The notes beneath the pieces were generated by a model that was not told where the DNA came from, searched no databases, and saw only the letters and a list, made by a program, of their open reading frames with translations. The translations under genes and the position numbers were made by a program. Positions 24,688 through 42,247 of a stretch of DNA of 64,000 bases are shown here, one piece after another (positions within the stretch are counted from its first letter, which is position 1; the number at the start of each line of letters is the position of its first letter). The stretch is from Planctomycetota bacterium. Lineage in GTDB: Bacteria; Planctomycetota; UBA1135; UBA2386. The stretch lies in assembly GCA_016794035.1 (NCBI GenBank), contig JAEUHS010000052.1:62001-126000 (forward strand), written 5' to 3'.

Positions 24688-25650
24688 TCAGAGCGGCCAG
24701 GTCGACATCGCGGTCTCGTCGACCTTGCCGTCGCCGTCCAGATCCGCCTGGATGCGCAGCGTCGTCAGACTCATCACGCGCGCCGTGATCGTGCGCCGTT
24801 GGCCGCCGCTCAACACCAGCTCGCCGGCGTAGGGGTCCGGCAGGAAGCTGAGGCCGGAGAACGGCACGCTGGTCGCGAACACGACGGCGCCCGGCGATCC
24901 GTCGACCAGCAGCGAACCATCGGCGAACATCGCGAACGTCTCGGTCTGCGGATAACGGTTGAAGGCGATCCTGGTGCCGGCCTGCAGCGTGGCCTCGTCG
25001 ACCTCGAGATCGGCGTCCAACACCATCTCGAACAGCTCGACGGTCAGCCGCGTCTCGCGGCGGAACTGCATCGATCCGGCGAACGCCGCCGTGCCCGCGT
25101 CCGAGGTCACGGTCAGATTCACCAACGACAGTCGTCCGCTCGTGACGCCGACCAACGGCGGCACGCCGGTCACGGCGAACACGTCGAGCATGACGATGCC
25201 GCTGAACGACCTGCCGCGGTCCCCGTAGGCGGTGAGCACGCTGAGGATCGAATCGCCGGGCGAGAGGCGTCCGTCGCCATCCTGATCCTCCCAGGCCCGC
25301 AGCACCTGGCCGCCTTCGGGCCCCTCGGCCGTGCTCGACACCGACGCCGGCAGCAGCACCGCGCTGGCCGGCGAGCCGCTGGCCAGCGCTGCCGCCACCG
25401 TCGCCAATGCCACCTGCGACGGCAGCGGCGGCGCCGCGAACGCGAGGTTCGAGCCGACCTCGGCCGCGTCGACGAACCCGAACGCGGACCGGAGCGTCCG
25501 CAGCGCGAGGTCCTGCGCGTTCGCCTGGGTGATCTCCACGCCGGGCGTCGGCAGCAGCGTGCTGGCGCCGCCGTCGTTGCTGCCGCTGCAGCCGGACGAC
25601 ACGAGGGTGCACACCAGGGCGGAGAAGGTGATCGGGACGGTCGCGCGCAT
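24688..25650 (-). CDS. Lipoprotein with calcium-binding-like DxDGDG repeats
   Basis: A 320-residue protein. MRATVPITFSALVCTLVSSG then CSGSN gives a lipoprotein signal with the acylated cysteine in SSGC. Two EF-hand/dockerin-like loops are visible: DQDGDGRLSPGD mid-protein and DLDGDGKVDET near the end. The rest is beta-rich (GRLSLVNLTVTSD, GELVLSGGQRRTITARV). No enzyme motif was seen; it is probably an outer-surface or periplasmic structural lipoprotein. A 12-base perfect palindrome (CTCGCATGCGAG, 25666-25677) lies 15 bases upstream of the ATG and could be an operator. The 194-base gap after the gene holds nothing I recognise. Confidence 0.8.
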   Translation of the reverse strand: MRATVPITFSALVCTLVSSGCSGSNDGGASTLLPTPGVEITQANAQDLALRTLRSAFGFVDAAEVGSNLAFAAPPLPSQVALATVAAALASGSPASAVLLPASVSSTAEGPEGGQVLRAWEDQDGDGRLSPGDSILSVLTAYGDRGRSFSGIVMLDVFAVTGVPPLVGVTSGRLSLVNLTVTSDAGTAAFAGSMQFRRETRLTVELFEMVLDADLEVDEATLQAGTRIAFNRYPQTETFAMFADGSLLVDGSPGAVVFATSVPFSGLSFLPDPYAGELVLSGGQRRTITARVMSLTTLRIQADLDGDGKVDETAMSTWPL

Positions 25651-25755: not shown

Positions 25756-26721
25756 TCAGGGCCGATGCATCCAGACGTCGACGAGGCGCAGCAACCAGCC
25801 GTACCATCGCCGCTGCAGCCGTTCGCTGTTGGCGCCCAGGTACTGGCCCCACGCCGTCCACTTCGCGTAGCCGACCGCCCAGCGCTCGAGCTCGGCGCGT
25901 GCGGCGGGGGTGAGGTCGGGCTCCTCGGCGACCTGGCGCAGGAAGTGGGCGCCGCCGTCGCGGACCGCGCGCCGGCAGTGCGCGAGGTCGGGGATCACGC
26001 GGAGACCGAACAGCGCGAACAGGTTCTGGTGGTCACAGTAGACCCGCTTGCCCTCCTGCTGCGGCGTCGTCACGTGGCTGTGCACGACCGCCGACTCGGG
26101 CACGAAGGCGATGCAGCCGCCGTTCTCGATCACGCGCTTGCCGAACGTCACGTCCTCGCCGAAGCGCCGCCAGCCGAACCGGTACTTCGCCCAGGTCGTG
26201 CGCCGCACGCTGCTGGCGACGTTGTCGAACGCCGACAGGCGCAGGCGCGCCATCGGTTCGAGCGCGTCGAACGAGGTGCCTTCGGGCAGCCGCTGCAACG
26301 CCAGCGTGCGACGATCCCCCATCCACTCCTCGATGCGCCGCCGCAGCAGCGGATTGCAGTTCGGACGCGGGATCTGGCGGCACCACGCGGCATCGACCGC
26401 CGGATCGTCGTAGGCCGCCAGCAGCGCGGGCAGCCAGTTCGTGTCGGCGGGCGTCGCGTCCTGCGTCAGCAACACGACGACGTCGCCGCGACTCGCTTCG
26501 ATGCCGAGATCGCGCGTCGCGCCGTGGTTGAACTCGCGCTGCGGGATCGTGTGCACCTGGAAGCCGTGGCGCCGCAGGACGTCCGGCGTGCCGTCGGTCG
26601 AGCCGCTGTCGATCGCGAGGCGTTCGAGCCGGTCGGCCCCCGGCTGGGCGTCGACGGCCGCCAGCACCTGCTCGAGCAGGGGGCCCGCGTTCCAGGTCGG
26701 CATCACGAGGCTCGCGTTCAT
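25756..26721 (-). CDS. GT2 family glycosyltransferase
   Basis: A 321-residue inverting GT-A enzyme. Motifs are SLVMPTWNAGPLLEQVL, DSGSTDGTPDVLRRHGF and LLTQDATP, where QDA takes the place of DxD as in rhamnosyltransferase-type GT2 proteins. A FGWRRFGEDVTFGKRVIENGG segment (the ED acceptor-site motif) follows, then a soluble tail. The ATG overlaps the stop of the upstream GT4 gene by four bases (ATGA), so it is the last gene of a four-gene operon read from 31757 to 25756. It probably adds one sugar to the surface polysaccharide built by this locus. The exact donor is not known. Confidence 0.9.
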   Translation of the reverse strand: MNASLVMPTWNAGPLLEQVLAAVDAQPGADRLERLAIDSGSTDGTPDVLRRHGFQVHTIPQREFNHGATRDLGIEASRGDVVVLLTQDATPADTNWLPALLAAYDDPAVDAAWCRQIPRPNCNPLLRRRIEEWMGDRRTLALQRLPEGTSFDALEPMARLRLSAFDNVASSVRRTTWAKYRFGWRRFGEDVTFGKRVIENGGCIAFVPESAVVHSHVTTPQQEGKRVYCDHQNLFALFGLRVIPDLAHCRRAVRDGGAHFLRQVAEEPDLTPAARAELERWAVGYAKWTAWGQYLGANSERLQRRWYGWLLRLVDVWMHRP

Positions 26722-28058
26722 GCGCGGGCGGCGACCAGGTCCTCGTACAGCGCACGCAGACGCGCGACGTTCTCGTCGATGCCGGGCGGCCGCGTCGGCT
26801 GCAGCGCCAGCTCGCGCGCCGGATCGGCGGCGATGCGCTGCAACACCGTCGCGAGCGCCGCCGCATCGCCGGCCGGGAACAGCATGCCGCTCTGGCCGGG
26901 CACGACGATCTCGCGGATCCCGCCGAGGTCGGAAGCGACCACCGGCACGCCGGCGTGCAGCGCCTCCAGCACCGAGAACGGCGTGTTCTCGTACCACAGC
27001 GACGGCACCACCAGCACGTCGAGGCCCGCCAGCACGCGACCCAGTTCGGCCGGCGCGAACGCGCCGTGGAAGGTCACGCGCGGATCGTCGATGCCGTCGA
27101 CCAGCGCCTCGGACCAGCCCGGCTGCGAGTCGCGGCTGCCGTGGACGTGCAGCCGCACGTCCGGCGTGTCGAGCCGGCGCATCGCGTCGAGCAGCACGTG
27201 CACGCCCTTGTGGCGCGAGATCGAACCGACGTAGCCGACGTCGAGCTGCGGCCGGCCAGGCGTTGCCTTCTTCGGCGGCATGTCGGCGAACCGACCGGGA
27301 TCGAGGCCATACGGCAGGTGCACGACCTTCTCGGCCGGCAGACCGTGCTGGCGGTACATGCCGGCGAGGAACTTCGACGGCGCGACGACGCGGTCGGCCC
27401 GGGCGAGCTTCGCCATCAGGTGTTCCTTGCGGCCGAGCAGCGCGTGCGCCTGGCGCACCGCCGACGCGCCCTGGTTGCCGGCGGGGGTCGGCAGCGGGCC
27501 GATCTTGCGCACGGCCGCCTCGATGCGGCGCTCGGCGACCGCGCTGCCCAGCCGATCGTCGACGCAGGCGATGCAGCCGGCGCCACCCTGCGGCGGCCCG
27601 TCGCAGAGGCTGCCGTCGCGCCGCCACAGCAGGTAGTTCGGGCAGATCCACCAGAAGTCCATCAGGTGCACGACCAGCGGCAGGTCGCGCCGCAGCGGCT
27701 CCTCGATCGCACCGGTGCCGATGTTGCGCGGGTGGAACAGGTGCACCAAGTCGAAGTCGACCTCGTCCAGATGGCGCGCGAGCAGCTGACCGGCGAGCGG
27801 GTTCTCGTAGTCGCGCAGCTCCGGGTTGGGCGACAGCCGATGGTGCACGCCGATGCGACGCACCGGCACGTCCTCGACCAGTTCGTCGCGCTCGAGATAC
27901 AGGCGGTCGGGGCTGTCGAACTGCACCAGCGGCTCGTAGGCGAGCACGCGAGCGTCGACGCCGCCGCCGCGCAGGCCGCGCGCCAGGGCCCGCACGTACT
28001 GTTCGGTGCCGGTGATGTGGCGCGGCAGGTACTGGTGCAGCGCGAGCAGGACCTTCAC
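26718..28058 (-). CDS. GT4 family glycosyltransferase
   Basis: A 446-residue GT-B retaining transferase. The start is a GTG (VKVLLALHQYLPRHITGTEQ), consistent with the first Rossmann strand of the family, where the TGTEQ loop contacts the acceptor. The C-terminal domain has VGYVGSISRHKGVHVLLDA and a clear E-x7-E in ENTPFSVLEALHAG. A cysteine-rich stretch (ICPNYLLW, LCDGPP, CIACVDD, about residues 135-170) is typical of a GT4 subgroup that may bind metal. Both ends overlap neighbours by four bases, so it is tightly coupled with the coiled-coil protein upstream and the GT2 downstream. Confidence 0.92.
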   Translation of the reverse strand: MKVLLALHQYLPRHITGTEQYVRALARGLRGGGVDARVLAYEPLVQFDSPDRLYLERDELVEDVPVRRIGVHHRLSPNPELRDYENPLAGQLLARHLDEVDFDLVHLFHPRNIGTGAIEEPLRRDLPLVVHLMDFWWICPNYLLWRRDGSLCDGPPQGGAGCIACVDDRLGSAVAERRIEAAVRKIGPLPTPAGNQGASAVRQAHALLGRKEHLMAKLARADRVVAPSKFLAGMYRQHGLPAEKVVHLPYGLDPGRFADMPPKKATPGRPQLDVGYVGSISRHKGVHVLLDAMRRLDTPDVRLHVHGSRDSQPGWSEALVDGIDDPRVTFHGAFAPAELGRVLAGLDVLVVPSLWYENTPFSVLEALHAGVPVVASDLGGIREIVVPGQSGMLFPAGDAAALATVLQRIAADPARELALQPTRPPGIDENVARLRALYEDLVAARA

Positions 28059-30271
28059 GACGACGTCCCGAGACGATCGAGGAACGCGCGCTCGTGGTCC
28101 TGCAGCCCGCGCGGGAACAGCCGCCGGGTCGTCACCTCCTGCAGCAACGCGGCGACCCACTGCTCGCGTTCGCGCAACGTGCGCTCGGTGTTCGCCAGCC
28201 GCTTCGCCATGCCGTCGAGGTTCGTCAGCAGCGCACGCTCGTCGGGGGCGCCGGCGCTGCGCAGCGTGGCCGCGAACTTCTCGACCTCCGCCAGCAGGGA
28301 CTTCAGCCGCCGTTCGAGACCGTCGCGATCGCCGGCATCGGCGAGACCCACGATGCGGGCCAGTTCGGCGGTGTGCTCGTGCATGCTGCGCAGGCTCTGG
28401 TCCACGGCCAGGAACTCGCGCTCCAGTTCGCGGTGGCTCTCCAGCTGCGCCGCCAGCCGCTCGTTCGCCTGCCGGCCGAGCAGGCGCGCTTCGTCGTGCT
28501 GCGCGGCCAGCGTCGCGACCTGCTGCTCCAGGTGTCCCGCCTGCTGCTGGACCTGCTGCAACTGTCGCTCGAGCTGCTGATTCTGCTGTCGTGCTTCCTG
28601 CAGCTGCTGCGCCAGCTGTGCACGCACGAGTTCCGCCTCCTGCAGGGCCCGCTGCCGTTCCTGTTCGGCTGCCTGCAGGTTCTGCTGCAGCTGCTGGCAA
28701 TCGGCGTGCGATCGCTGCAGGTCCGCCGCGGCGCGCCGACCGGACTCGTCGGCCGCGACCAGCCTCTGCTCGACGTCCAGGCGAGCCGCCTGCAGCTGCC
28801 TCACCTCGGCCTGGGCTTCGCGCAGCCAGACCTGCACCTGCTCGAGCTGCTGGGCCGTCGTTGCGCGCGCCCCCTCGGCGCGCTCGGCGCGCGCCGACTG
28901 GGCGTGGCGCTCGGTGTCGATCGCGGTGCGCTCGCTCCGGGTCGCCGCGAGCGCGTGCGACGTCGCCCGCGCCGCGTTGCGGCACATCGCGATGTCGTTC
29001 GCGAGCGCCGCGAACGCCGCCGGCGCCGGCGCCACCACCTGGGACTCCGCTCGCAGCAGCGCCCCCTCGAGTTCCTCGCTGCCGACCAGGTCGGCGTCGA
29101 TACAGCTGCGCAGCAGCGCGACCCGGCTCGACTGCACCAGGGAGCAGACCTGCGCCGACGGCAGCGCGTTCTGGACCACGCCCGCAGTGATCTGATCGAG
29201 GATCGCGCGCTGCACCGAGAGATCGGCCACCGGCAGCCGTGCGAGCAACGCCGTCAGGAACGTCGCCAGCTCGGCCGTGCCGAGTTCCCACAGCTCCGGC
29301 AGATCGGCGATCGCGCGGCCCACCTGGTCGGGCCGATGCATCGCCAGCACGAACAGGCGTTCGCGCGGATGTGCCGCGTCGATGTCCGCGGTCGCCGACG
29401 CCACCACGGCCGGTGACGGCACGCCGAGCACGTCGAAGTTGCCTCGGCGCGCCCGCAGCACGTAGTCGATCAGGCTGGCCGTGCCCTGCAGACCCTCGTC
29501 GAAGGCGCCCGTGCGCTCGAACGCCGCGCGCCGCAACACGAAGGCGTCCGGCGCCGCCCACGGCACCGGGAACGGCGTCGCCGGCGCCGGCACCGGCACC
29601 GCGCGCGGCACCAGATGCAGCAGCGAATCGCGTTCGACGCAGCCGATCGAAGCCGTGCCGTCCCGTTCGACGCGCGGACACAGCAACACGGCGTTCGGCG
29701 CGATCGCCGCCGGCAGCACCGGCGCCGTCTCGAGGCTGGCGCCGGGGCCGACGAACAACACGACGTCCGCGGTGGTGCCGGCCATGCCGAGGTTCCAGCA
29801 CTGCGCCGGCGTCTGCGCATCGCGATGCACCAACGTCGAGATCGCGTCGACCGCCAGATCCGCCGGCACCGCGGTCGGCGGCCCGACCCAGAACACCGGC
29901 ACGTCGGCGCACGCCGAGCGGCTCGCGAGCGCGGCCGACAGCGAGCCCTCGCCCCAGAACACCACCTCGAGCGGCGGCTTGCGCTGGCCCTTCTTGCCAC
30001 GCTTCGACTTCGACGGCGCGCAGCCACCCGCGTGCTGCAGGCGCGAACGCGCGTCGCCGAGCAGGCGTTCGAGCTCGCCGATGCGCTCGGCCAACCGCTC
30101 GCGGTCGCCGTTGAGGCGCCGCGCCTCCGCCAGTTCTTCGAGGAAGCCCAGCGACTGCTCGGTCAGGTCGCGCAGCTGCCGCTCGCGGTCCGCGAGTTCA
30201 CGCTGCAGGCGGGCGGCGACCCCTGGGCCGGTGTCGCCTTCGTCGTCCTTGCTGCTGGCCTTGTTGCTCAT
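28055..30271 (-). CDS. Degenerate GT-A-like domain with long coiled coil
   Basis: A 738-residue soluble protein unlike a standard glycosyltransferase. An N-terminal short coiled coil (about 15-85, LADRERQLRDLTEQSLGFLE) is followed by a basic patch (SKSKRGKKGQRKPP). A GT-A-like domain (about 100-330) follows, in which the DxD site appears as VLFVGPGA, so catalysis is doubtful. FVLRRAAFERTGAFDEGLQG fits the acceptor side of GT2 folds. A helical region and a coiled coil of about 200 residues (about 440-640, very rich in Gln, Glu, Leu, e.g. LERQLQQVQQQAGHLEQQVA) precede a helical C-terminus. It sits between GT4 genes in an ABC-exporter polysaccharide locus, where a coiled-coil scaffold or chain-length ruler such as WbdD is a known analogy. 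Confidence 0.8.
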   Translation of the reverse strand: MSNKASSKDDEGDTGPGVAARLQRELADRERQLRDLTEQSLGFLEELAEARRLNGDRERLAERIGELERLLGDARSRLQHAGGCAPSKSKRGKKGQRKPPLEVVFWGEGSLSAALASRSACADVPVFWVGPPTAVPADLAVDAISTLVHRDAQTPAQCWNLGMAGTTADVVLFVGPGASLETAPVLPAAIAPNAVLLCPRVERDGTASIGCVERDSLLHLVPRAVPVPAPATPFPVPWAAPDAFVLRRAAFERTGAFDEGLQGTASLIDYVLRARRGNFDVLGVPSPAVVASATADIDAAHPRERLFVLAMHRPDQVGRAIADLPELWELGTAELATFLTALLARLPVADLSVQRAILDQITAGVVQNALPSAQVCSLVQSSRVALLRSCIDADLVGSEELEGALLRAESQVVAPAPAAFAALANDIAMCRNAARATSHALAATRSERTAIDTERHAQSARAERAEGARATTAQQLEQVQVWLREAQAEVRQLQAARLDVEQRLVAADESGRRAAADLQRSHADCQQLQQNLQAAEQERQRALQEAELVRAQLAQQLQEARQQNQQLERQLQQVQQQAGHLEQQVATLAAQHDEARLLGRQANERLAAQLESHRELEREFLAVDQSLRSMHEHTAELARIVGLADAGDRDGLERRLKSLLAEVEKFAATLRSAGAPDERALLTNLDGMAKRLANTERTLREREQWVAALLQEVTTRRLFPRGLQDHERAFLDRLGTSS

Positions 30272-30296: not shown

Positions 30297-31757
30297 TCAA
30301 GGCTTGCCGCGGCGCTGGAGACCGTCGCGGATCTTCTGCAGGCGGCGCTTCAGCGACCAGCGCGGACGGGCACGGTCCGGCTGCGGTTGCTTCGGCGGGG
30401 ATTCGGGTGGCGGCGGCGCCGGCGGCGGCACGACGGCCGGTTCGTGGCCGGCTTCGCGCAACTGCGCCGCCAATGTGTTGGCCTGGACCCGCGCGGTGTG
30501 CAGCTGGGCCTCGGCACCGAGGCAGCGCTGCTGCCAGGCAGCGAGTTCGCGCTCGAGGTCGTTGAACTTGTAGCGCGCCGCGCTCGCCAGACTCTCGTAG
30601 ACGGCGGGATCCAGACGCTTGCGCGGACTGGTGCCGGCCTTGGCGGTGGCGATCGCACGCTCGTAGCAGGCGAACGTGAGCTCGGCCGTGCGCCGCCAGC
30701 TGTACGTCTTCTCCTTGGCTGCTCCTCGCGCGATCAGCGCCTCGATCTCGGGTCCTCCGGCCAGACACTTGCGCAGCATCTGTTCGAGTTGGCGGTCGTC
30801 GCCGGGTCGGTGCAGGAAGGCACCATCGCCGCAGACCTCGGGGATCGACATCGCCGCCGCCGCGACCACCGGCGTCCGCAGCGCCATCGCCTCGATCGGC
30901 GGGATGCCGAAACCCTCCTCGAGCGACGGATACGCCATCGCCCTGCAGCCCTGGATCAGCGCCTTGATGTCCTGGTCGTCGAGACCCTGCACCCACTGCA
31001 CGCGATTGCCGAGGCCGAGCCTCGCGATGATCTCGTCGCTGGTCTCTCCGGCGTTCTTCCAGATCTTGGTGCCGGCGATGCACAGGCGCACCGACGCCGG
31101 CAGTCGCGCCAGCGCGCGCAGCAGCGTCGCGTGGTCCTTGTGCGGATAGTCCTTGCCGACGGCGAGGAAGAAATCGCCCTCGAAGCCGATGCGCTTGCAG
31201 CGGCGGCGAACCTCGTCGGCGGCGAGCGGCGTGTGGAAGTCCGGGTCGACGGCGAGCGGCGCCACGTCGGCGATGCTCGGATCGCCATCGAGATCACGTT
31301 CGATCTCGCCGATCACCGACGTGCTGTGGACCAGCAGCCGATCGCTGTTGCGGATCAGCCGCTTGATGAACCCGTTGTACCAGCGCCAGTGTTCCTGGTC
31401 GGGGAAGTACTCCGGGTGACGATTGAGGATCGCGTCGTGCACCTCGACGACCGATGCCGGCGCCAGCAAGGGCAGGAACAGGTCGCGCGGCGTCTGATCC
31501 GGAAACCACGTCATGTGGTAGACATCCGGCCGCTGCGCCGGGTCCGTCAGCACCTTGACGATGTCCTCGGTGGTCCAGACCTCGCAGCGCTCGACCCTCT
31601 CGGGCAGCGGCTTGGCAGGGTTCGTGTGCTTGACGACGACCACACGCAACCTCTTGACCTGCGGCAGGTTCGAGAGTTCCCGCAGCACGTTCAGCTGCAC
31701 GCGCTCGAGGCCCGACAGCGGGCGGTTCAGCATGCGGGCGTCGAACAGGATGTCCAT
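30297..31757 (-). CDS. GT4 family glycosyltransferase with coiled-coil and basic amphipathic tail
   Basis: A 486-residue GT-B enzyme. MDILFDARMLNRPLSGLERV opens the N-domain; FLAVGKDYPHKDHATLLRAL and EEGFGIPPIEAMALRTPVVA (E-x7-E) mark the donor-binding domain. After about residue 395 it has an extra tail: a short heptad-like helix (FNDLERELAAWQQRCLGAEA), a Pro-rich linker (PPPAPPPPESPP) and a basic amphipathic end (RWSLKRRLQKIRDGLQRRG) that could bind the inner face of the membrane. It is the first gene of the four-gene minus-strand operon, 25 bases before the coiled-coil protein. A TAGGAT hexamer lies 32 bases upstream, next to a palindromic repeat. Confidence 0.9.
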   Translation of the reverse strand: MDILFDARMLNRPLSGLERVQLNVLRELSNLPQVKRLRVVVVKHTNPAKPLPERVERCEVWTTEDIVKVLTDPAQRPDVYHMTWFPDQTPRDLFLPLLAPASVVEVHDAILNRHPEYFPDQEHWRWYNGFIKRLIRNSDRLLVHSTSVIGEIERDLDGDPSIADVAPLAVDPDFHTPLAADEVRRRCKRIGFEGDFFLAVGKDYPHKDHATLLRALARLPASVRLCIAGTKIWKNAGETSDEIIARLGLGNRVQWVQGLDDQDIKALIQGCRAMAYPSLEEGFGIPPIEAMALRTPVVAAAAMSIPEVCGDGAFLHRPGDDRQLEQMLRKCLAGGPEIEALIARGAAKEKTYSWRRTAELTFACYERAIATAKAGTSPRKRLDPAVYESLASAARYKFNDLERELAAWQQRCLGAEAQLHTARVQANTLAAQLREAGHEPAVVPPPAPPPPESPPKQPQPDRARPRWSLKRRLQKIRDGLQRRGKP

Positions 31758-31827: not shown

Positions 31828-31938
31828 GGGAACTGATGACTTGCGTGCAGCTCCTTGGCCGAGAGAGCAGGGCATGGTGGCGCGATCGGCGCAACGGTGG
31901 CAGCAAAACCCGGGAGCTGCACCCAAGTCATCAGTTCC
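31828..31938. repeat. Intergenic palindromic repeat, copy 2 (best preserved)
   Basis: The left arm 31829-31854 and right arm 31913-31938 are inverted copies matching at 25 of 26 positions; each begins GGAACTGATGACTTG when read inward. The loop is 58 bases. The right arm contains the stop codon (31931-31933) of the GT4 gene at 31931. The loop has a CGGTGGCAG word about 12 bases before the right arm that is also present at the same place in copy 3. The transcript could form a strong hairpin on either strand, so the element may also end transcription. Confidence 0.8.
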
Positions 31939-33475
31939 GGAAGCCGGCAGCGAAGATGCGTGCGCCCAGTTCGCGCCGATCCTCCCCCTTCATCGCCGGC
32001 GGCAGCACATGGTTGACCGTCAGTTCCACCGTCACCAGACCGGTGCGCGGCAGCCGCGCCGGCAGTTCGAACGTGAACGTGCGCGGCGCGTGGCCAAGCA
32101 GTCCCGTGCCGATCACCGCACCGCCGACGCGCACCACCAGCGTGACCTCGTCCTCCGGCAGCGGCGACGCGGCGGTGACGCGCAGCACGGCGTGCTGGGG
32201 CCGAGCCCGCAGCTGCAGGGTGCCGCGCCGCTGCATCCAGCGGAAGCTCCCCTCGGGCGGCCGCTCGACGCCGTAGAAGCCCTCGTCGATGCCGCGCTCG
32301 TCTTCGCCCATGCGCACGTCGGTCGGGTCGAGCTCCTCGTCGGCGACGACGCGCTGCAGGATCGCCAGGGTCTCGCGCGCGGCACGATCCCAGCTGAACG
32401 TCGCCGCGCGCGCCATGCCGTCGTCGCGCAACCGCTGCTGCAGCGCCCGGTCTTCGAGCACGCGCTGCAGTGCCCGCGACAGCTCCTTCGGATCGAGCGG
32501 CGTGTCGACGTAGCAGACCGCCTCGCCCCCGACCTCGGGCAACGATGCGACGCGGCTGGTGATCACCGGTGCGCCGCAGCTCATCGCCTCGATCACCGGC
32601 AAGCCGAAGCCCTCGTAGAGCGTCGGATAGCAGAACAGCGCGCAGGTGTTGTAGAGCGCCACCAGTTCGTCGTCGGTGACGAAGCCGAGGAAGTGCACCT
32701 TGTCACGCAGACCGTGGCGATCGACGGCCTCGAACACGGCCGAGTTCTTCCAGCCCGAGCCGCCGGCGATCGCCAGTCGAGCCGGGTGCTTCGTGCGCGC
32801 CTGGAAGTCGGCGAACGCGTCGACCAGGGTCGCCAGGTTCTTGCGCGGTTCGACCGAACCGACGTACAGCACGAACGGCGCACCGCCGATCTGGGCCTGG
32901 AAGCGCGCGGGCAGCTGCGCCTGCGGCAGCCGGCGGCAGATCGGATCCGCCGCCTCGTGCACGACGTCGATGCGATCGGCCGACACCCCCATCGCGCGCA
33001 CGAGTTCGGCCTTGCTGAAGTGCGACACGGTGACGAATCGGTGCGCGAGCCGCAGCGACCGGTCGAACTGGTCCTCGCAGTAGACTCGGTTCGCCTCGGT
33101 CGAGAACTCCGGGTGGACGCGGAACGACACGTCGTGCCAGACGCACACGAGCCGCGGCAGCCATCGGTCCGGCGCGTTGTGGAACGGGCTGAAGTAGACG
33201 TCGGGTGGCGGCCCGAGCAGGCGCCTGCGGTCGCCGTGATGCCATTCGTGTTCCAGCCAACGGCGCGGCCGCCAGCCGCCGGCGCGGCGGAAGTTGCGCG
33301 CGCGGGGCATCACGGCGTCGCGGTGGTTCGGCGGCAGCGAGTGCCAGGTGATCGGATACAACGTGTACCGGTTCTCGTGGTCGACGCGCGCCATCGCCTC
33401 CACCAGCGACCGCGTGTACGACGGCAGCCCGGTCTTGCTGTCCGCGGTCATGGATACGTCGATGCCGATCCGCAT
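31931..33475 (-). CDS. GT4 family glycosyltransferase with C-terminal beta module
   Basis: A 514-residue protein. The GT-B core (about 1-385) has MRIGIDVSMTADSKTGLPSY at the start, FVLYVGSVEPRKNLATLVDA, and the E-x7-E motif in YEGFGLPVIEAMSCGAPVI. I chose the ATG at 33475 because it begins the first Rossmann strand; an upstream in-frame GTG at 33490 is less likely. After the core comes a beta-rich module of about 120 residues (GFYGVERPPEGSFRWMQRRG, LRVTAASPLPEDEVTLVVRV) ending in DRRELGARI. The divergent GT2 protein at 33555 carries a similar module with DTRELG. The stop codon lies in a palindromic repeat. Confidence 0.92.
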   Translation of the reverse strand: MRIGIDVSMTADSKTGLPSYTRSLVEAMARVDHENRYTLYPITWHSLPPNHRDAVMPRARNFRRAGGWRPRRWLEHEWHHGDRRRLLGPPPDVYFSPFHNAPDRWLPRLVCVWHDVSFRVHPEFSTEANRVYCEDQFDRSLRLAHRFVTVSHFSKAELVRAMGVSADRIDVVHEAADPICRRLPQAQLPARFQAQIGGAPFVLYVGSVEPRKNLATLVDAFADFQARTKHPARLAIAGGSGWKNSAVFEAVDRHGLRDKVHFLGFVTDDELVALYNTCALFCYPTLYEGFGLPVIEAMSCGAPVITSRVASLPEVGGEAVCYVDTPLDPKELSRALQRVLEDRALQQRLRDDGMARAATFSWDRAARETLAILQRVVADEELDPTDVRMGEDERGIDEGFYGVERPPEGSFRWMQRRGTLQLRARPQHAVLRVTAASPLPEDEVTLVVRVGGAVIGTGLLGHAPRTFTFELPARLPRTGLVTVELTVNHVLPPAMKGEDRRELGARIFAAGFRN

Positions 33476-33554: not shown

Positions 33555-35411
33555 ATGCCACCACTGGCCCTGGTCGTCTGTCCGCTGCCCGCCGACCGTG
33601 AGGTGGTGCGCGCGACGCAGTCGCTGCTCGCCGAACTCGCCGGCCGTGACGACGTGGTGCTGTTCTGCCCCGAGCCGTACCAGGCGCCGGCGGCGTGGGA
33701 ACGTGCACACCGGCTGCTGCCGCTGGCCGAGCTGCCCTACGAACGCGCCCGAGGCGCGGTGACGGCGCCGATCTACCTGGTCGACGGCGGTCCCGGCGAC
33801 GGGTTGCTGCGACGCACGGCGGCGTCGGTGCCGGGTGTGATGGTCGAAGCCGCCACGACGCCGACCGCCACGTCGCTGCGCGCACGGGCCGCGGCGATCA
33901 CCGCGATGCCGCAGGTGCGCGACGCCGCCGCCGCACCGACCGTCGAGGCGATGGTGCTCGCCTACAAGAGCAAGGACTACATCTCACCGTGCCTGCAGTC
34001 GCTGCTCGAACAGGACTGGCCGAATCTGAAGATCACCGTGCTCGACAACGCGTCGGGCGACGGCACCGCCGACTTCGTGCGGCGCACGTTCCCCGGCATC
34101 GAGGTGCTGGAGTCGGACGAGAATCTCGGCTTCGCGGCCGGCCACAATCTGCTGTTCGACCGCTCGACCGCCGACTACGTGGCGCTGCTCAACCACGACG
34201 CGATCGCGCGCCGCAACTGGGTCTCCGAACTCGTCGCCGCGGCCGAGTCGCTGCCCGGGGGCGCGGCGTTCGGCGCCAAGATGCTGATGCGGCGGTGCCC
34301 GACGATCCTGAACAGCACCGGCATCGTCATGTGCGAGAGCGGCTTCGCCGCCGACCGCGACATCGGTCGTCCCGATCTCGATCCCGCCACCGAGCCCGAA
34401 CGGGTGTTCGCGGTCTGCGGCGGCGCGCTGCTGCTGCGCGGCCCGCTGCTGCGCCAGCTCGGCGGCTTCGACCCGACGTTCTTCATGTACGTCGAGGACG
34501 TCGACTGGTGCTGGCGCGCGCGGATCGCCGGCCACGAGGTCTACTACGTGCCCAGCGCGGTCGCGGTGCACGACTGGCACGGCGACATGGCCGCGGCCGG
34601 CAAGACGTCGGCGCCCGAGGCCGAGGAGGTCGTCGCCGAACGCGAGGGCCGGCGCCGCGCGATGGTCGAACGGAACCGGCTGCAGGCCGTGTTCAAGAAC
34701 TACGAACGCCACCAGCTGCGCCGCGTCTGGCGCGGCATCCGCGACTACGACCGCGGCCGGCTCGAGGCGCTGGCCGAGCACGTCACCAAGGGCGGCGGGC
34801 CGATGCCGCGGCGCGTGCTCGAGGCGGTGCAGTCGGCCCATCGCTGGTGCCGCCGCCACGCGCTCGGTCTGCGCTGGCGCCGCTTCCGCACCCAGCGGCT
34901 GCGCGCGGTGCCCGACGCGACGTTCACCGATCTGATCGTGCCCGGCATGCAGGAGCCGTCCGGCGTCGGCGACCTGCACGCGATCGTCGACCGCTACTGC
35001 GCGAAGCCGCGCGCGCGCATCGCGGTCGGCGGTGACGACGCCGGCAGCCTCGGCCCGGGCTGGCACCATCCGGAGCCCGGCGCGCACGGTCACGAGGGCC
35101 TGCGCTGGACGATGGCCAAGTGCTGGTTCTACGTCGCCGCGGCGAAGCCGTGGCGCACGGTCGCGCTGACGCTGGTGCCGCAGCCGCTCGACACCTGGGC
35201 GGAACTGTGGGTCGACGGCATCTGCGTCGGCCGCCAGGACGTGCCGCGCGACCGGCCGAACGAACTGCGTTGGCAGCTGCCGGCCGAATCGCCGGCCGAC
35301 CGGGTGATCGAGTGCAGTCTCGTCTGCGGTGCCTTCGTGCCCAAGGAGCGCGGCATGGGCGGCGACACGCGCGAGCTGGGTCTGCACGTCGCGGTGATCC
35401 ACGTCGAGTGA
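33555..35411 (+). CDS. GT2 family glycosyltransferase with C-terminal beta module
   Basis: A 618-residue protein. A variable N-terminal region (about 1-125) is followed by a GT-A domain with AMVLAYKSKDYISPCLQSLL, VLDNASGDGT, LLNHDAIARRNW (metal site) and FFMYVEDVDWCWRARIAGHE then VYYVPSAVAVH, typical of rhamnosyl- and related transferases. A helical linker (about 355-450) leads to a beta-rich C-terminal module (GWHHPE, RWTMAKCWFYV, CSLVCGAFVPKE, DTRELGLHV) resembling the tail of the divergent GT4. The ATG lies 7 bases after a CAGAAT hexamer. The AIM24 gene follows 44 bases downstream on the same strand. Confidence 0.92.
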   Translation: MPPLALVVCPLPADREVVRATQSLLAELAGRDDVVLFCPEPYQAPAAWERAHRLLPLAELPYERARGAVTAPIYLVDGGPGDGLLRRTAASVPGVMVEAATTPTATSLRARAAAITAMPQVRDAAAAPTVEAMVLAYKSKDYISPCLQSLLEQDWPNLKITVLDNASGDGTADFVRRTFPGIEVLESDENLGFAAGHNLLFDRSTADYVALLNHDAIARRNWVSELVAAAESLPGGAAFGAKMLMRRCPTILNSTGIVMCESGFAADRDIGRPDLDPATEPERVFAVCGGALLLRGPLLRQLGGFDPTFFMYVEDVDWCWRARIAGHEVYYVPSAVAVHDWHGDMAAAGKTSAPEAEEVVAEREGRRRAMVERNRLQAVFKNYERHQLRRVWRGIRDYDRGRLEALAEHVTKGGGPMPRRVLEAVQSAHRWCRRHALGLRWRRFRTQRLRAVPDATFTDLIVPGMQEPSGVGDLHAIVDRYCAKPRARIAVGGDDAGSLGPGWHHPEPGAHGHEGLRWTMAKCWFYVAAAKPWRTVALTLVPQPLDTWAELWVDGICVGRQDVPRDRPNELRWQLPAESPADRVIECSLVCGAFVPKERGMGGDTRELGLHVAVIHVE

Positions 35412-35455: not shown

Positions 35456-36133
35456 ATGAAGATCACGCTCGAACACGGTCCGGCGTTCACCTGGGCGCGC
35501 GTACAGCTGGCCGCCGGCGAATCGGTCAAGGCCGAGTCCGGCGCGATGGTGTCGATGAGCACCAGCGTCGCGATCGAGACCAAGATGCAGGGCGGCTTCC
35601 TCGGCGCACTCGCGCGCAAGGTGCTGACGTCCGAGTCGTTCTTCCAGAACACGTTCACCGCCGAGCGCGGCGCCGGCGAGGTGACGTTCGCGCCGTCCTT
35701 GATGGGCGACATCCACGTGCGCGAGCTGGGCGGTGCGGAGCTGCTGCTGACCTCGGGTTCCTACCTCGCCAGCGACCCCGCCATCGACCTGCAGACGAAG
35801 TGGGGCGGCATGAAGTCGTTCTTCGCCAAGGAAGGGCTGTTCCTGCTGCGCGCGGCCGGTGCCGGCTCGCTGCTGTTCACCTGCTACGGCGCGCTGGTCG
35901 AGATGGACGTGCCGCCCGAGGGCTACGTCGTCGACACGGGCCACGTCGTCGCGTTCGAACCGAGCCTCGAGTACAGCGTGCAGAAGGTCGGCGGCCTCAA
36001 GTCGATGTTCCTGTCCGGCGAGGGACTGGTGTGCCGGTTCGCCGGCCGCGGCCGGCTGTGGCTGCAGACGCGCTCGCTGGATGCGTTCGTCGGCACCATC
36101 GTGCCGTTCCTGCCCAAGCGCTCGTCGAACTGA
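35456..36133 (+). CDS. AIM24/TIGR00266 family protein
   Basis: A 225-residue protein matching the AIM24 (TIGR00266) family, a tryptophan-RNA-binding-attenuator-like beta fold found in many bacteria and in mitochondria. Motifs are VQLAAGESVKAESGAMVSMS at the N-terminus, SFFQNTFTAERGAGEVTFAP, LLLTSGSYLAS, GLFLLRAAGAGSLLFTCYGA and FEPSLEY. The length is normal. The molecular function is unknown. It follows the GT2 gene by 44 bases, so they may be co-transcribed, although AIM24 genes are not specific to polysaccharide loci. Confidence 0.9.
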   Translation: MKITLEHGPAFTWARVQLAAGESVKAESGAMVSMSTSVAIETKMQGGFLGALARKVLTSESFFQNTFTAERGAGEVTFAPSLMGDIHVRELGGAELLLTSGSYLASDPAIDLQTKWGGMKSFFAKEGLFLLRAAGAGSLLFTCYGALVEMDVPPEGYVVDTGHVVAFEPSLEYSVQKVGGLKSMFLSGEGLVCRFAGRGRLWLQTRSLDAFVGTIVPFLPKRSSN

Positions 36134-36531: not shown

Positions 36532-37137
36532 ATGACCAGCAACCCCCGCAACCTGACGCGCCACGCCGGCGCCGTTCTGCGCCGTGACCGCGAGCGACTG
36601 CTCGGCCAGCGCGGAGCCGTGATCTGGTTCACGGGGCTGTCGGGCTCCGGCAAGTCGACGATCGCGCACGCCGTCGAACAACGGCTGACCGCCGGCGGAC
36701 GGCTCACCTATGTGCTGGACGGCGACAGCATTCGCCACGGCCTGTGCAAGGACCTCGGCTTCACGCCGGCCGACCGCAGCGAGAACATCCGCCGCGTCGG
36801 CGAGGTCGCGGCGCTGCTGGTCGACGCCGGCGTGCTGGTGCTGACCGCGTTCATCTCGCCCTACGGCATGGACCGCCAGCGGGTGCGCGAGATCGTCGGC
36901 ACCGACTTCGTCGAGGTGTTCGTCGACGCACCGCTCGAGGTCTGCGAAGGCCGTGACCCGAAGGGCCTCTACCGGCGGGCGCGCGCCGGCGAGATCGCCG
37001 AGTTCACGGGCATCAGCGCCCCGTACGAACCGCCCGAGCACCCCGACCTGCACCTTCGCACCGGCTCGCAGGCGCTCGCCGAGTGCGTGACCGCCGTGCA
37101 CGACCTGATCGCGGCGCGGGGCCTGCTGCGCGCATGA
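36532..37137 (+). CDS. cysC: Adenylylsulfate kinase
   Basis: A 201-residue cytoplasmic kinase that phosphorylates adenosine 5'-phosphosulfate (APS) to PAPS, the sulfate donor for sulfotransferases and for reductive assimilation. The P-loop GLSGSGKST is at residues 35-43, the DGD substrate motif at about 63-65 ([10 protein letters not shown]), followed by [30 protein letters not shown] and [20 protein letters not shown]. All catalytic motifs look intact. It opens an operon with cysD, cysNC and wzt, and its stop overlaps the cysD start by four bases. No reductase genes for assimilation are nearby, which favours a sulfation role. Confidence 0.95.
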
Positions 37138-38042
37138 GCAACTACGCGCTCAGCCACCTGCAGCAGCTGGAGCAGGAGAGCATCCACGTGATGCGCGAGG
37201 TGCAGGCCGAGTTCGCGCGCCCGGTGATGCTCTACTCGATCGGCAAGGACTCCGGCGTGATGCTGCGGCTGGCCCAGAAGGCGTTCGCGCCGGCGCGCAT
37301 CCCGTTCAAGGTCCTGCACATCGACACGACCTGGAAGTTCCGCGAGATGATCGCGTTCCGCGACCGGATCGTGCGCGAACTCGACCTCGACTTCGAGGCG
37401 TGGACCAACCCCGACGGCGTGCGCGACGGCATCAACCCGTTCGATCACGGCACCCAGCGCTACACGCACGTGATGAAGACCGAGGCGCTGAAGCAGGCGC
37501 TCGATCGCGGGCAGTACGACGCGGCGTTCGGCGGCGCCCGGCGCGACGAAGAGAAGAGCCGCGCCAAGGAGCGCGTGTTCAGCTTCCGCGACCGCTTCCA
37601 CCAGTGGGACCCGAAGCACCAGCGGCCCGAGCTGTGGAACCTGTTCAACTGTCGGGTCGCGAAGGGCGAGTCGATCCGCGTGTTCCCGCTCAGCAACTGG
37701 ACCGAACTCGACGTCTGGCTCTACATCCACCGGGAGCAGCTGCCGGTCGTGCCGCTCTACTTCGCCAAGGAGCGCCCGGTCGTCCGGCGCAACGGCGCCT
37801 GGATCATGGTCGACGACGATCGGCTGCCACTGCTGCCGGGCGAACAGCCGCAGCGGCGCATGGTCCGTTTCCGCACGCTGGGCTGCTACCCGCTGACCGG
37901 TGCGGTCGAGTCGACCGCCGACACGGTGCCGAAGATCGTCGAGGAGATGCTGCGCAGCCGCGATTCGGAGCGGCAGGGCCGCGTCATCGACAACGACGAG
38001 CTCGGTTCGATGGAGGACAAGAAGCGCGAGGGCTACTTCTGA
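37134..38042 (+). CDS. cysD: Sulfate adenylyltransferase subunit 2
   Basis: A 302-residue catalytic subunit of ATP sulfurylase, which with CysN makes APS from ATP and sulfate. It is a PP-loop ATP pyrophosphatase: [20 protein letters not shown] contains the SxGKDS-type loop. Further signatures are [54 protein letters not shown] and [16 protein letters not shown]. The length is as expected. The ATG sits in an ATGA overlap with cysC, and the stop overlaps the cysNC start by one base, so the trio is translationally coupled. Confidence 0.96.
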
Positions 38043-39985
38043 TGTCCGGCCACCGCCAGCTCGACGAACTGGGCATCGACGCCTACCTGCAGCGCTACGG
38101 CCAGCGCGAGATGCTGCGGCTGCTGACCTGCGGCAGCGTCGACGACGGCAAGTCGACGCTGATCGGCCGGCTGCTGCACGACTCGCAGGCGGTGTCCGAC
38201 GACGTGCTCGCGGCGACCAGGCAGGCGTCGGAGCGCTTCGGCACGACCGGTGACGACGTCGACCTCGCGCTGCTGGTCGACGGGCTGCAGGCGGAACGCG
38301 AACAGGGCATCACGATCGACGTCGCCTACCGCTACTTCGCGACCGATCGACGCAAGTTCGTCGTCGCCGACACGCCGGGGCACGTGCAGTACACGCGCAA
38401 CATGGCGACCGGCGCCTCGAACTGCGACCTCGCCGTGATCCTGATCGACGCGCGCCACGGCGTGCTGGAGCAGACGCACCGGCATTCGTTCCTGTGCTCG
38501 CTGCTGGGCATCCAGCACTTCGTCGTCGCGATCAACAAGATGGACCTGGTCGGCTGGAGCGAGGACCGCTTCGAGGCGATCCGCGCCGCCTACAGCCAGT
38601 TCGCGGCCCGACTGCAGGTGCGCGACATCCACTTCATCCCGATGTCGGCGACGAAGGGCGAGAACGTCGTGCATCGCGGCGCCAGCATGCCGTGGTTCCA
38701 GGGCTCACCGCTGCTCGACCACCTCGAGACCGTGCACGTCGCCGGCGACCGCAACCTCGTCGACCTGCGCTTCCCGGTGCAGCTGGTCGTACGCCCGGAC
38801 GCGGACTTCCGCGGCTACGCCGGCACGGTCGCCTCGGGCGTCGTGCGCGTCGGCGACCGGATCGCCGTGCTGCCGGCCGGCACGCAGAGCCGCGTCGCCT
38901 CGATCGGCACGCCCGACGGCGACGTGCCGGAGGCGTTCGCCGGCATGGCCGTCACGTTGACGCTGCAGGACGCGATCGACGTCAGCCGCGGCGACATGGT
39001 GGTCGCGCCCAACAACGCCCCGCCGCTGACGAACACGATCGAGGCGATGGTGGTCTGGTTCGCCGATGCACCGCTGCGCGCGGGCGCCAACTACCTGCTG
39101 AAGCACACGACCGTGCAGACCGCGGCCAAGGTGACCGATCTGCGCTACCGCGTCGACGTCGGCACGCTGCATCGCCAGTCCGCGCCGGCGCTGGCGATGA
39201 ACGAGATCGGCCGCGTCCGCCTCGAGTGCGCGCGCCCGCTCGCGGCCGATGCCTACGGCAAGAACCGCCAAACCGGCGCGTTCATCCTGATCGACCGCAT
39301 CGGCAACGCGACCGTCGGCGCCGGCATGATCGTCGAACGCAAGACCGTCGACGAAGCCGCGCACCGACGCGGCGCCAGCGCCGACGCCGGCAGCAACGTG
39401 CGCCGCGCGACCCGCGGCCGGATCACGCCCGCGGCGCGCCGGCAGCGGCTCGGCCAGGAGCCGTTCGTGCTGTGGATCACCGGACTGCCGCGCGCCGGCA
39501 AGTCGTCGCTGGCCCACGGCCTCGAGCAGTGGCTGTTCGACCACGACTACCACGCGCTGGCGCTCGACGGCGAACTGCTGCGCCTGGGCCTGAACCGCGA
39601 CCTCGGCTTCGGCGGCGCCGACCGGTGGGAGAACCAGCGCCGCGCCGCGGAGCTGGCGCGCATGAACCTCGACTTCGGCATCAGCTCGATCGTCGCGCTG
39701 GTGTCACCGCTCGCGTTCGAACGCCGACGCGCCCGCGAGATCGTCGGCAGCCCGCACTTCTTCCAGGTGTGGTGCAACGCCCCGCTCGAGGTCTGCGAGG
39801 CGCGCGACGAGCACGGCCTGTTCGCCGCCGCACGCCGCGGCGAGATCCAGGGCGTCACCGGCCTGGACGCGCCGTACGAGCGGCCCGACGATGCCGACCT
39901 CGTGCTCGACACGGTCGCCGACAGTGCCGCCGCGAACCTGCAGAAGGTGATCGATTTCCTGCACCAGCGCGGTCTGCTGAGGTGA
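38042..39985 (+). CDS. cysNC: Bifunctional sulfate adenylyltransferase GTPase / APS-kinase-like fusion
   Basis: A 647-residue fusion. The N-terminal GTPase (about 1-440) has G1 CGSVDDGKSTLIGRLL, G2/G3 with EQGITIDVAYRYF and DTPGHVQYTRNM, and G4 NKMDLV, matching CysN, which activates ATP sulfurylase with GTP. The C-terminal part (about 455-645) is an APS-kinase domain, but with GLPRAGKSS in place of [15 protein letters not shown] instead of DGD, and WENQRR for ENIRR. The P-loop lysine is kept, so it may be slow, specialised or regulatory; the intact stand-alone CysC two genes upstream could carry the kinase step. It lies 27 bases before wzt. Confidence 0.94.
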   Translation: MSGHRQLDELGIDAYLQRYGQREMLRLLTCGSVDDGKSTLIGRLLHDSQAVSDDVLAATRQASERFGTTGDDVDLALLVDGLQAEREQGITIDVAYRYFATDRRKFVVADTPGHVQYTRNMATGASNCDLAVILIDARHGVLEQTHRHSFLCSLLGIQHFVVAINKMDLVGWSEDRFEAIRAAYSQFAARLQVRDIHFIPMSATKGENVVHRGASMPWFQGSPLLDHLETVHVAGDRNLVDLRFPVQLVVRPDADFRGYAGTVASGVVRVGDRIAVLPAGTQSRVASIGTPDGDVPEAFAGMAVTLTLQDAIDVSRGDMVVAPNNAPPLTNTIEAMVVWFADAPLRAGANYLLKHTTVQTAAKVTDLRYRVDVGTLHRQSAPALAMNEIGRVRLECARPLAADAYGKNRQTGAFILIDRIGNATVGAGMIVERKTVDEAAHRRGASADAGSNVRRATRGRITPAARRQRLGQEPFVLWITGLPRAGKSSLAHGLEQWLFDHDYHALALDGELLRLGLNRDLGFGGADRWENQRRAAELARMNLDFGISSIVALVSPLAFERRRAREIVGSPHFFQVWCNAPLEVCEARDEHGLFAAARRGEIQGVTGLDAPYERPDDADLVLDTVADSAAANLQKVIDFLHQRGLLR

Positions 39986-40012: not shown

Positions 40013-41230
40013 ATGCAACCCGTCATCGAAGCCCGCAACCTGAGCAAGACCTACCGGATCTACGGCAACCCGTACCACCGGCTGTGGGAGATGCTGCCCT
40101 GGGTCACCCGGCCGCTGCACCGGACCGTGCACGCGCTCGAGGACGTCAGCTTCGAGGTGAACCCGGGCGAGTGCATGGGGCTGATCGGCGTCAACGGCGC
40201 CGGCAAGTCGACGCTGCTGAAGGTGCTGAGCGGCACCACGTTCCCCAGCGCCGGCAGCTACTCGGTGCACGGACGCGTCACCAGCCTGCTCGAGCTGGGC
40301 GCCGGCTTCCATCCCGAGTTCACCGGCCGCGAGAACATCTACATGAACGCGGCGATGATGGGCTTCTCGCGCAAGGAGGCGCAGAAGAAGTTCCAGGAGA
40401 TCGTCGAGTTCAGCGAGCTCGGCGACTTCATCAACGCGCCGGTGCGCACCTACTCGTCCGGCATGGCGGCGCGACTCGGCTTCAGCGTCGCGATCGCCAC
40501 CGAACCGGACCTGATGATCATCGACGAGATCCTCGCGGTCGGTGACATGAACTTCCGCCGCAAGTGCGTCGACAAGATCTGGGCCTACAAGAAGCAGGGC
40601 AAGTCGATGTTCTTCTGCTCGCACTCGCTCTACGACGTGCGGCAGCTGTGCGAACGCACGATCTGGATGCGCCACGGACGCATGGAGATGCTGGCCGACT
40701 CGGTCACCGTGACGAACGAGTACGCGACCTACGAGAACAAGGTCGCCGGCGGTGGCGATCCGATGCCGTTCGAGGAGGTTCCGGCCGCGCCGTCGACCGA
40801 CACCACGCAGCCGCACATCGTCGCAGCCGAGCTGCTCGACGCCGTCACCGGCAAGCCGCGCAACGCGTTCTCGCCCGGCGACCACGTCGCCGTGCGTGTG
40901 CACGTCAAGAACAGCCAACGCCGCGAGAGGCTGTCGTTGGCGGTCGGCGCGATGCGCAAGGACGGCACGCTGTGCTTCGCCCATGCGACGCACTTCGCCG
41001 GCATCACGTTCGACTTCGAGGAAGGCCACGTCACGCTGGTGCTGGACAAGCTGTGCCTGCTGTCCGGCGAGTTCACGGTGCCGATCTGGCTGTTCGACGA
41101 GAACGGCATCCACCGCTTCCAGGAGCGACCGGCAAGGGAGAACCTCGTGGTGCAGAACCGCACCAAGGACCTCGGCCTGTTCCTGCAGGAGCACCGCTGG
41201 ATCGTCGAGCCGGTGACCGGCAAGCAGTAG
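40013..41230 (+). CDS. wzt: Polysaccharide ABC exporter ATPase with Wzt-type C-terminal domain
   Basis: A 405-residue protein. The ABC ATPase (about 1-240) has Walker A GVNGAGKST (59-67), LLELGAGFHPEFTGRENIYM typical of polysaccharide exporters, signature YSSGMAARLGF and Walker B LMIIDEILAVGD, then a switch histidine in CSHSLYD. A linker leads to an immunoglobulin-like domain (about 262-400, VRVHVKNSQRRERLSLAVGA, LLSGEFTVPIWLFDENG) like the carbohydrate-binding domain of Wzt, which recognises the finished chain end. It is co-directional with cysC-cysD-cysNC and convergent with the wzm permease gene, which is unusual because the pair normally shares an operon. Confidence 0.94.
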   Translation: MQPVIEARNLSKTYRIYGNPYHRLWEMLPWVTRPLHRTVHALEDVSFEVNPGECMGLIGVNGAGKSTLLKVLSGTTFPSAGSYSVHGRVTSLLELGAGFHPEFTGRENIYMNAAMMGFSRKEAQKKFQEIVEFSELGDFINAPVRTYSSGMAARLGFSVAIATEPDLMIIDEILAVGDMNFRRKCVDKIWAYKKQGKSMFFCSHSLYDVRQLCERTIWMRHGRMEMLADSVTVTNEYATYENKVAGGGDPMPFEEVPAAPSTDTTQPHIVAAELLDAVTGKPRNAFSPGDHVAVRVHVKNSQRRERLSLAVGAMRKDGTLCFAHATHFAGITFDFEEGHVTLVLDKLCLLSGEFTVPIWLFDENGIHRFQERPARENLVVQNRTKDLGLFLQEHRWIVEPVTGKQ

Positions 41231-41317: not shown

Positions 41318-42247
41318 TCAGATCAGGTCGGCGAACTTGTGCTTCCGGCTCATGAACACCGTGTAGCCGACGATCAGGAACACGACCGCCCAGACCGCCG
41401 AGATGCCGAGGTTGGACCAGAAGTCGCCGACCACGACGTCGCGCGTCGCGGCGATGCCGTTGACCGACGCCTCCATCGTGCCGGTGACGCCGAGCGCCGC
41501 ACGGTGCGCCTGGATCAGCGGGAACGCCGGATTGAGGGCGAACAGCAGCTTCGACGGCAGGCCGTGGAACTTGGCCTCCATCAGCGCGGGCTCCCAGAAC
41601 ACCGGCGACAGGAACATCCAGGCCATCGTCAGGATGCGCCACAGCTGCGACATGTCGCGCACGAAGACGTTGATGCTCGCCAGCAGGAGTCCGATGCCGA
41701 GCGTGATGACGACCTGCACGACCAACACCAGCGGCAGGGCCAGCATCAGCCAGCCCGGCCGGAGCACGCCGGCCAGGAGCCCGGTCACCACGAGCACCGC
41801 CGCGCCGACCGAGTAGATCACGACCGAGACCAGCGAGACGTGCACCAGCAGCACTTCCGACGGGAAGGCGACCTTCTTCACGAGGTTGCCGTTGTCGACC
41901 ACGATCGTGCAGGTCTGCGACGTCGTCTCGACCAGCGCGTGGAACGCGATGATGCCGGAGAACAGGAACACCGCCAGGTGCGCGTCCGGCAGCTGACCGG
42001 TCTTCCAGTTCCCGAACAGCATCCCGAACACGAAGAAGTAGACGATGAACTGGAACAGCGGCTGCACGAGCAGCCAGTAGGCGCCGAGGAACGAGCCGTG
42101 GAAGCGCCCCATCAGGTCGCGGCGCAGGAAGTTCTGCACCATGTAGCGGTTGGCCCAGATGCGACCGGGGTAGCCGACGATCGGCAGCAGGTGGCGGATC
42201 AGACCGCGCGGGGCGGTCGCGGCATCGTAGTGGCGGACTAGGGTCAT
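41318..42247 (-). CDS. wzm: Polysaccharide ABC exporter permease
   Basis: A 309-residue permease of the ABC-2 type. About six membrane segments are visible (FIVYFFVFGMLFGN, LVSVVIYSVGAAVLVVTGLL, LPLVLVVQVVITLGIGLLLA, and a C-terminal AVWAVVFLIVGYTVFM). The amphipathic interface helix before TM1 reads RRDLMGRFHGSFLGAYWLLV, a hallmark of Wzm/TagG proteins, and DMSQLWRILTMAWMFLSPVF is the conserved periplasmic-gate region. It should form the exporter with the Wzt-like ATPase encoded convergently 87 bases away. Upstream is a gene-free stretch of 318 bases. Confidence 0.94.
   Translation of the reverse strand: MTLVRHYDAATAPRGLIRHLLPIVGYPGRIWANRYMVQNFLRRDLMGRFHGSFLGAYWLLVQPLFQFIVYFFVFGMLFGNWKTGQLPDAHLAVFLFSGIIAFHALVETTSQTCTIVVDNGNLVKKVAFPSEVLLVHVSLVSVVIYSVGAAVLVVTGLLAGVLRPGWLMLALPLVLVVQVVITLGIGLLLASINVFVRDMSQLWRILTMAWMFLSPVFWEPALMEAKFHGLPSKLLFALNPAFPLIQAHRAALGVTGTMEASVNGIAATRDVVVGDFWSNLGISAVWAVVFLIVGYTVFMSRKHKFADLI

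Follow-up and report, generated by a model that had tools for sequence, protein, structure and literature searches.

The Locus and Its Homologues

The window analyzed here, a stretch of 64,000 nucleotides (G000:C95:62001-126000), belongs to a 4.83-Mb planctomycete genome in 133 contigs. It carries a minus-strand cluster of glycosyltransferase genes, in which two GT4 genes (GT4b and GT4c) flank the gene of a 738-residue protein, hereafter the coiled-coil protein (Table 1). The gene reported in the initial annotation is real: codon usage backs the open reading frame on the minus strand and the frame stays open in homologues from nine other genomes. A plus-strand gene at the same place was ruled out by an internal stop.

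We obtained ten homologues in total, including the protein itself. Seven of the 34 genomes of the window's family encode it (presence and absence within one family not being independent of descent), one same-family homologue being located on JAEUHQ010000039.1, from a Planctomycetota MAG. A sample of the phylum added three homologues from another family and order (f27). A single-sequence scan of 84,980 genomes gave one match, and a plasmid search gave none. The genomes are assemblies, mostly fragmented, and gene starts were taken from a home-made codon-usage gene caller.

Table 1. Features of the coiled-coil protein and of its surroundings in the window.
Feature	Position	Strand	Basis
Coiled-coil protein (pseudo-GT2), 738 aa	28055..30271	-	ORF, codon use, ten homologues counting itself
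N-terminal coil, residues 16-83, RERQLRDLTEQSLGFLEELAEARR	30023..30226	-	COILS-type scan, conservation
GT-A/GT2-like head, residues 100-292	29396..29974	-	profile match, AF2, Foldseek, alignment
Helical extension, residues 302-410, ERLFVLAMHRPDQ..., colinear with GT2x	29042..29368	-	profile match, AF2, alignment
Coiled-coil rod / continuous helix, residues 418-646, predicted at about 34 nm if straight	28334..29020	-	COILS-type scan, AF2
C-terminal motif LxEREQWIALLLQEVxxRRL..L..HERAFLDR	28058..28204	-	profile searches
GT4b, constant upstream partner	30297..31757	-	
GT4c, constant downstream partner, 4-bp overlap with the coiled-coil protein	26718..28058	-	
GT2a, 4-bp overlap with GT4c	25756..26721	-	
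GT4a, first gene of the minus-strand cluster	31931..33475	-	
GT2b, divergent	33555..35411	+	
Lipoprotein gene, downstream of the cluster	24688-25650	-	
CysC, CysD, CysNC (sulfate activation, PAPS)	36532..39985	+	
Wzt with C-terminal Wzt_C domain	40013..41230	+	
Wzm-type ABC-2 permease, convergent with Wzt	41318..42247	-	

The order GT4b, coiled-coil protein, GT4c was recovered in every complete locus, across two taxonomic orders. The 4-bp overlap between the coiled-coil protein and GT4c was present in nine of nine complete loci, the locus of G020 being cut by a contig end and hence not complete. Within the family, the coiled-coil protein and GT4b occur in the identical seven of 34 genomes, a co-occurrence for which common descent may account in part. 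GT2b was found near the coiled-coil protein in seven of the examined genomes, namely in G012 and in members of both the window's genus and the other order. The coiled-coil protein shows 57-62% identity within the genus versus 79-88% for its glycosyltransferase neighbors; a component lacking an active site would be expected to diverge faster in this way.

GT4b contains a conserved ERELAAWQ helix; its residues 440-486 form a hypervariable Pro-rich linker, which differs in length between homologues, followed by an almost invariant basic amphipathic tail, RPRWSLKRRLQKIRDG. The helix and tail that the initial annotation had pointed out on this GT4 are both conserved in seven aligned homologues.

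Several other features of the neighborhood were observed. GT4a and GT2b have similar-looking C-terminal domains with a common RELG motif and no Pfam match, possibly carbohydrate-binding domains. The lipoprotein downstream of the cluster shows 37% identity between species of the same genus, versus 87-88% for its neighbors. In the window, an AIM24-family gene (35456-36133, plus strand) separates GT2b from the Cys genes; it was not found at that place in same-genus relatives. In the other order, in G172 (L124 11908-18998) and on L127, genes for MBOAT, AlgX-like, GT2b, sulfatase and GDP-mannose 4,6-dehydratase proteins come after the module.

Architecture of the Coiled-Coil Protein

The N-terminal coil (residues 18-83 in the coil scan), absent from the description in the initial annotation, is the best-conserved part of the protein (44-84%). 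The coiled coil of about 200 residues that the initial annotation had proposed was confirmed. The COILS-type score over residues 416-640 was 1.52 versus 1.27 +/- 0.04 in shuffled sequences (0 of 100 reaching 1.52), and the hydrophobic period was 3.54, with a power of 10.5 versus a shuffle maximum of 6.8. Probabilities of at least 0.5 were obtained at residues 483-628 and 646-675, the contiguous stretch corresponding to 146 residues or about 22 nm; the shuffle control is safer evidence than the COILS-type probabilities themselves. The hydrophobic period was 3.49-3.60 in all seven family homologues, the periodicity peak falling inside the shuffle range in G001 and G003.

When residues 410-738 were folded alone, AF2 predicted a single unbroken helix of 229 residues (418-646), with pLDDT of 90-97 across most of its central part, rather than a helical bundle. 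A hairpin at a helix break at residues 540-545, seen in the alignment-based AF2 model, was rejected: the break vanishes when the segment is folded alone, and it also coincides with an insertion missing from most aligned homologues. Matches to SMC, Rad50 and MAD proteins were not retained as homology, as they involve the coil-bearing part only; the SMC/keratin-like matches were confined to residues 438-709, far below the cut-off, and no such homology was found outside the coil.

The Head Resembles a Degenerate GT2

The initial annotation described a GT-A-like domain without DxD, in agreement with our structural and sequence comparisons. The AF2 model of the head, built with six aligned sequences, has a pLDDT mostly of 80-90 over residues 101-290, and Foldseek matched it best, without exception, to GT-A-type transferases or to enzymes with such a domain (E down to 3e-9, probability 1.00). 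In the alignment, FVGPG stands where an intact GT2 has LNTD, the position of the DxD. None of the ten homologues has the DxD, ED base, DNGSTDGS-type motif or HxxH. The DxD is replaced differently from one homologue to another (GPG, AGG, GAG, GAQ, IAG, GPS), while the Asn of WN, GxFD and RA, positions of the fold, are kept. Pfam recognized no enzyme domain and no GT2 in the protein. The head therefore looks like a degenerate GT2, whose loss of activity we infer from several motifs together.

Relationship With GT2x

The best non-self matches of the coiled-coil protein among 548 proteins from about 20 loci were GT2x proteins, that of the window's genome being encoded at G000:C80:32371-33453. Profile-profile comparison aligned the head and extension with the core and extension of GT2x (probability 94%, E 1e-7). 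GT2x is intact, with DNGSTDGS, LNTDA, YYEDVD and EHVGHGS all present.

The C-terminal motif is also common to both proteins. Its hydrophobic moment is modest, the clear basic amphipathic tail being that of GT4b. A profile made only from the C-termini of the coiled-coil protein finds GT2x at E 7e-9 to 3e-11; in the reverse search, the GT2x profile finds the coiled-coil protein at E 3e-8 to 2e-4, the next protein being at 0.2. Among 154 genomes of the order, the motif was limited to these two proteins in eight genomes, plus one weak match (7e-4) elsewhere. The common motif makes the coiled-coil protein look like a paralogue of GT2x in which the rod would have been inserted between extension and motif.

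In G043, GT2x directly follows GT4c with a 4-bp overlap, at the place of GT2a in the window. We found no full-length GT2x in G012, where the coiled-coil protein is present; GT2x is thus not obligatory. In G000:C80 (L032 4028-6453) and G043 (L069), GT2x is followed by a membrane protein, that of G000 having a weak match to the TLC ATP/ADP carrier family.

Linkage to the ABC Exporter

The placement of the protein in a Wzm/Wzt locus was correct for the window's genus and was not seen in the sequence examined from other genera. Wzt and Wzm lie about 10 kb from the coiled-coil protein in the window, and an exporter was found near it only in this genus (g1, three genomes); in five other genera, from two orders, no Wzm/Wzt was linked to it in the sequence examined. 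Occurrence outside ABC-exporter loci, which the initial annotation had named as evidence against a ruler, was seen, as a module with no linked exporter, in G003, G012, G043 and three genomes of the other order. For these last three (f27), no exporter was recognized on the contigs of the coiled-coil protein, which are only 14-23 kb long; MBOAT, AlgX-like, sulfatase and GDP-mannose dehydratase genes lie on that of G172, and likewise in G335.

Conversely, Wzm is present in 33 of 34 family genomes versus seven of 34 for the coiled-coil protein, and is usually accompanied by Wzt and often by CysNC-CysD-CysC, without a glycosyltransferase cluster. The Cys block is tied to Wzt and not to the coiled-coil protein. 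In G003, the half of the cluster with the coiled-coil protein and the half with the exporter, GT2b and GT4a are on separate contigs; in G012, the coiled-coil protein, GT4a and GT2b are together and Wzm-Wzt is on another contig. Because GT2b and GT4a join both blocks in different genomes, it is suggestive, but only suggestive, that the two blocks may serve the same glycan.

In the window, as in many family members, Wzt and Wzm converge tail to tail, Wzt being preceded by CysC-CysD-CysNC; in others the two genes run in the same direction. Sulfotransferases adjoin Wzm in G003 and G002, which points to sulfation of the exported glycan.

Rod Length

The span from the extension landmark to the C-terminal Trp ranges from 260 to 503 residues in nine homologues, about twofold, and from 363 to 395 residues within one genus. 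In contrast, the N-terminal part up to the landmark is constant in the window's family (307 +/- 6 residues). Length differences between homologues gave no firm pattern of multiples of seven. Rod length is either weakly constrained or tuned by species.

We also searched the surroundings of Wzm, out to about 10 kb if the contig reached that far, in 17 family members lacking the coiled-coil protein, and found no coiled-coil candidate ruler; the sole coil call near these loci was a protein-kinase/TPR protein. The idea that every Wzm/Wzt family member has a ruler-like coil protein beside its exporter was therefore abandoned. A coil protein near Wzm in G020 C447, considered as a candidate, turned out to be an SMC.

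Interpretation

The constant position of the coiled-coil protein between the same two GT4 genes suggests that it probably holds a glycan-building complex together. On balance we favor the view that it is a non-catalytic, pseudo-GT2 scaffold of a cytoplasmic GT4/GT4/GT2 glycan-assembly complex. It would have originated from a GT2x-type family-2 glycosyltransferase by loss of the sugar-nucleotide and catalytic residues, gain of the N-terminal coil and acquisition of the long rod between the GT2-plus-extension part and the old C-terminal motif. The protein probably oligomerizes via its two coils. The dead GT-A heads may bind the acceptor glycan or another enzyme of the complex, and the C-terminal motif could dock at the place where that of GT2x docks. 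The working partners would be GT4b, with a helix of its own and a basic amphipathic tail that may lie against the membrane, and GT4c, presumably translationally coupled to the coiled-coil protein. GT2b, plus GT2x or GT2a, would provide further transferases.

The ruler raised by the initial annotation, in which the rod, as in WbdD, would keep a chain-end event a constant distance away from polymerases near the membrane and thereby set glycan length, appears unlikely to us. The layout does resemble that of WbdD, with its N-terminal head, coil and C-terminal recruitment or membrane region (PMC11231755, PMC5082667), the coiled coil is continuous and, with 229 residues, would exceed the roughly 20 nm reported for WbdD, Wzt carries a Wzt_C domain and the cluster adjoins Wzm/Wzt in the window's genus. 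However, the protein has no kinase, methyltransferase or active glycosyltransferase, and a head without catalytic residues leaves no terminator to hold at a distance; a ruler with such a head would depend on a separate terminator enzyme bound to it, unless the head itself sensed the chain end. No exporter is linked in the sequence examined from other genera, and the 17 Wzm-bearing family members without the protein offered no coil candidate near Wzm. The rod varies while the N-terminal part is fixed; the length of coils is on average less variable than that of other regions (PMC5082667). Length variation is also what a species-specific chain length would predict, so that a ruler is improbable rather than refuted.

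A variant that dispenses with the terminator seems quite improbable: dead GT2 heads, assembled as an oligomer on a rod particular to each species, would measure or sense the growing glycan, which would be made by the membrane-proximal GT4b and GT4c and by the GT2 bearing the docking motif found at the C-terminus of the rod, in planctomycete pathways that would not necessarily involve an ABC exporter.

It is likewise quite improbable that the protein is a still-active, metal-independent glycosyltransferase with an oligomerizing coil. Metal-independent GT-A enzymes without a DxD exist, and the GT-A fold is kept together with the conserved N and GxFD residues; nevertheless, four independent GT2 motifs were lost together in every homologue, the residues replacing the DxD are not conserved and Pfam detects no GT2. 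That the coil is a mere oligomerization or cytoskeletal element, with a purely positional link to glycan synthesis, is very improbable: long coils are common and only the coil-bearing part gives the weak SMC/keratin-type scores, but the head derives from a GT2, the motif is common with a GT2 and the GT4-coiled-coil protein-GT4 order, with its 4-bp overlaps, is fixed across two orders.

Comparison With Known Systems

Our literature searches returned nothing on Wzt O antigens of planctomycetes or on coiled coils of pseudoglycosyltransferases. The initial annotation had noted that the protein is no sequence match to WbdD, and indeed no WbdD chain, nor any WbbB chain, was among its PDB matches at E<=1.

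Every ruler described bears its terminator on the coiled-coil protein itself (PMC11231755). In WbdD, the distance between terminator and membrane is about 20 nm (PMC5082667). Like WbdD of E. coli O9a and K. pneumoniae O3, the coiled-coil protein has an N-terminal head, a long coiled coil and a conserved C-terminal region, and it is encoded with other transferases and, in the window, also near Wzm/Wzt. Unlike WbdD, it has a dead GT2 head in place of the kinase and methyltransferase, is not tied to an exporter and has a rod of very variable length, coils usually being less length-variable than other regions (PMC5082667). WbbB (O12) and the coiled-coil proteins of K. pneumoniae O4 and O7 have been proposed to act also as membrane-associated scaffolds (PMC11231755). 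They resemble our protein as glycan-assembly proteins built around a coiled coil, but theirs is an active terminator at the distal end, whereas ours has none. The WbbL/rhamnosyltransferase-like GT2, here GT2x, has in common with it a GT-A core followed by a helical extension and the same C-terminal motif, but is intact (NTD, YYED, HVGH) and lacks the long coil.

In the GtfA-GtfB pair, an active GT4 enzyme is assisted by GtfB, a GT-related subunit without catalytic activity. Its likeness to the coiled-coil protein lies in the dead GT-related partner, GtfB being a GT-B protein without a coiled-coil rod. Few systems with a coiled-coil ruler of glycan assembly are known, and each has an enzyme on its rod, in contrast to the apparently dead transferase used here, in a GT4-pseudo-GT2-GT4 module conserved across two planctomycete orders. 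The nine rod lengths that occur in nature, 260-503 residues between constant landmarks, allow a relation between rod length and chain length, or a role as scaffold, to be tested.
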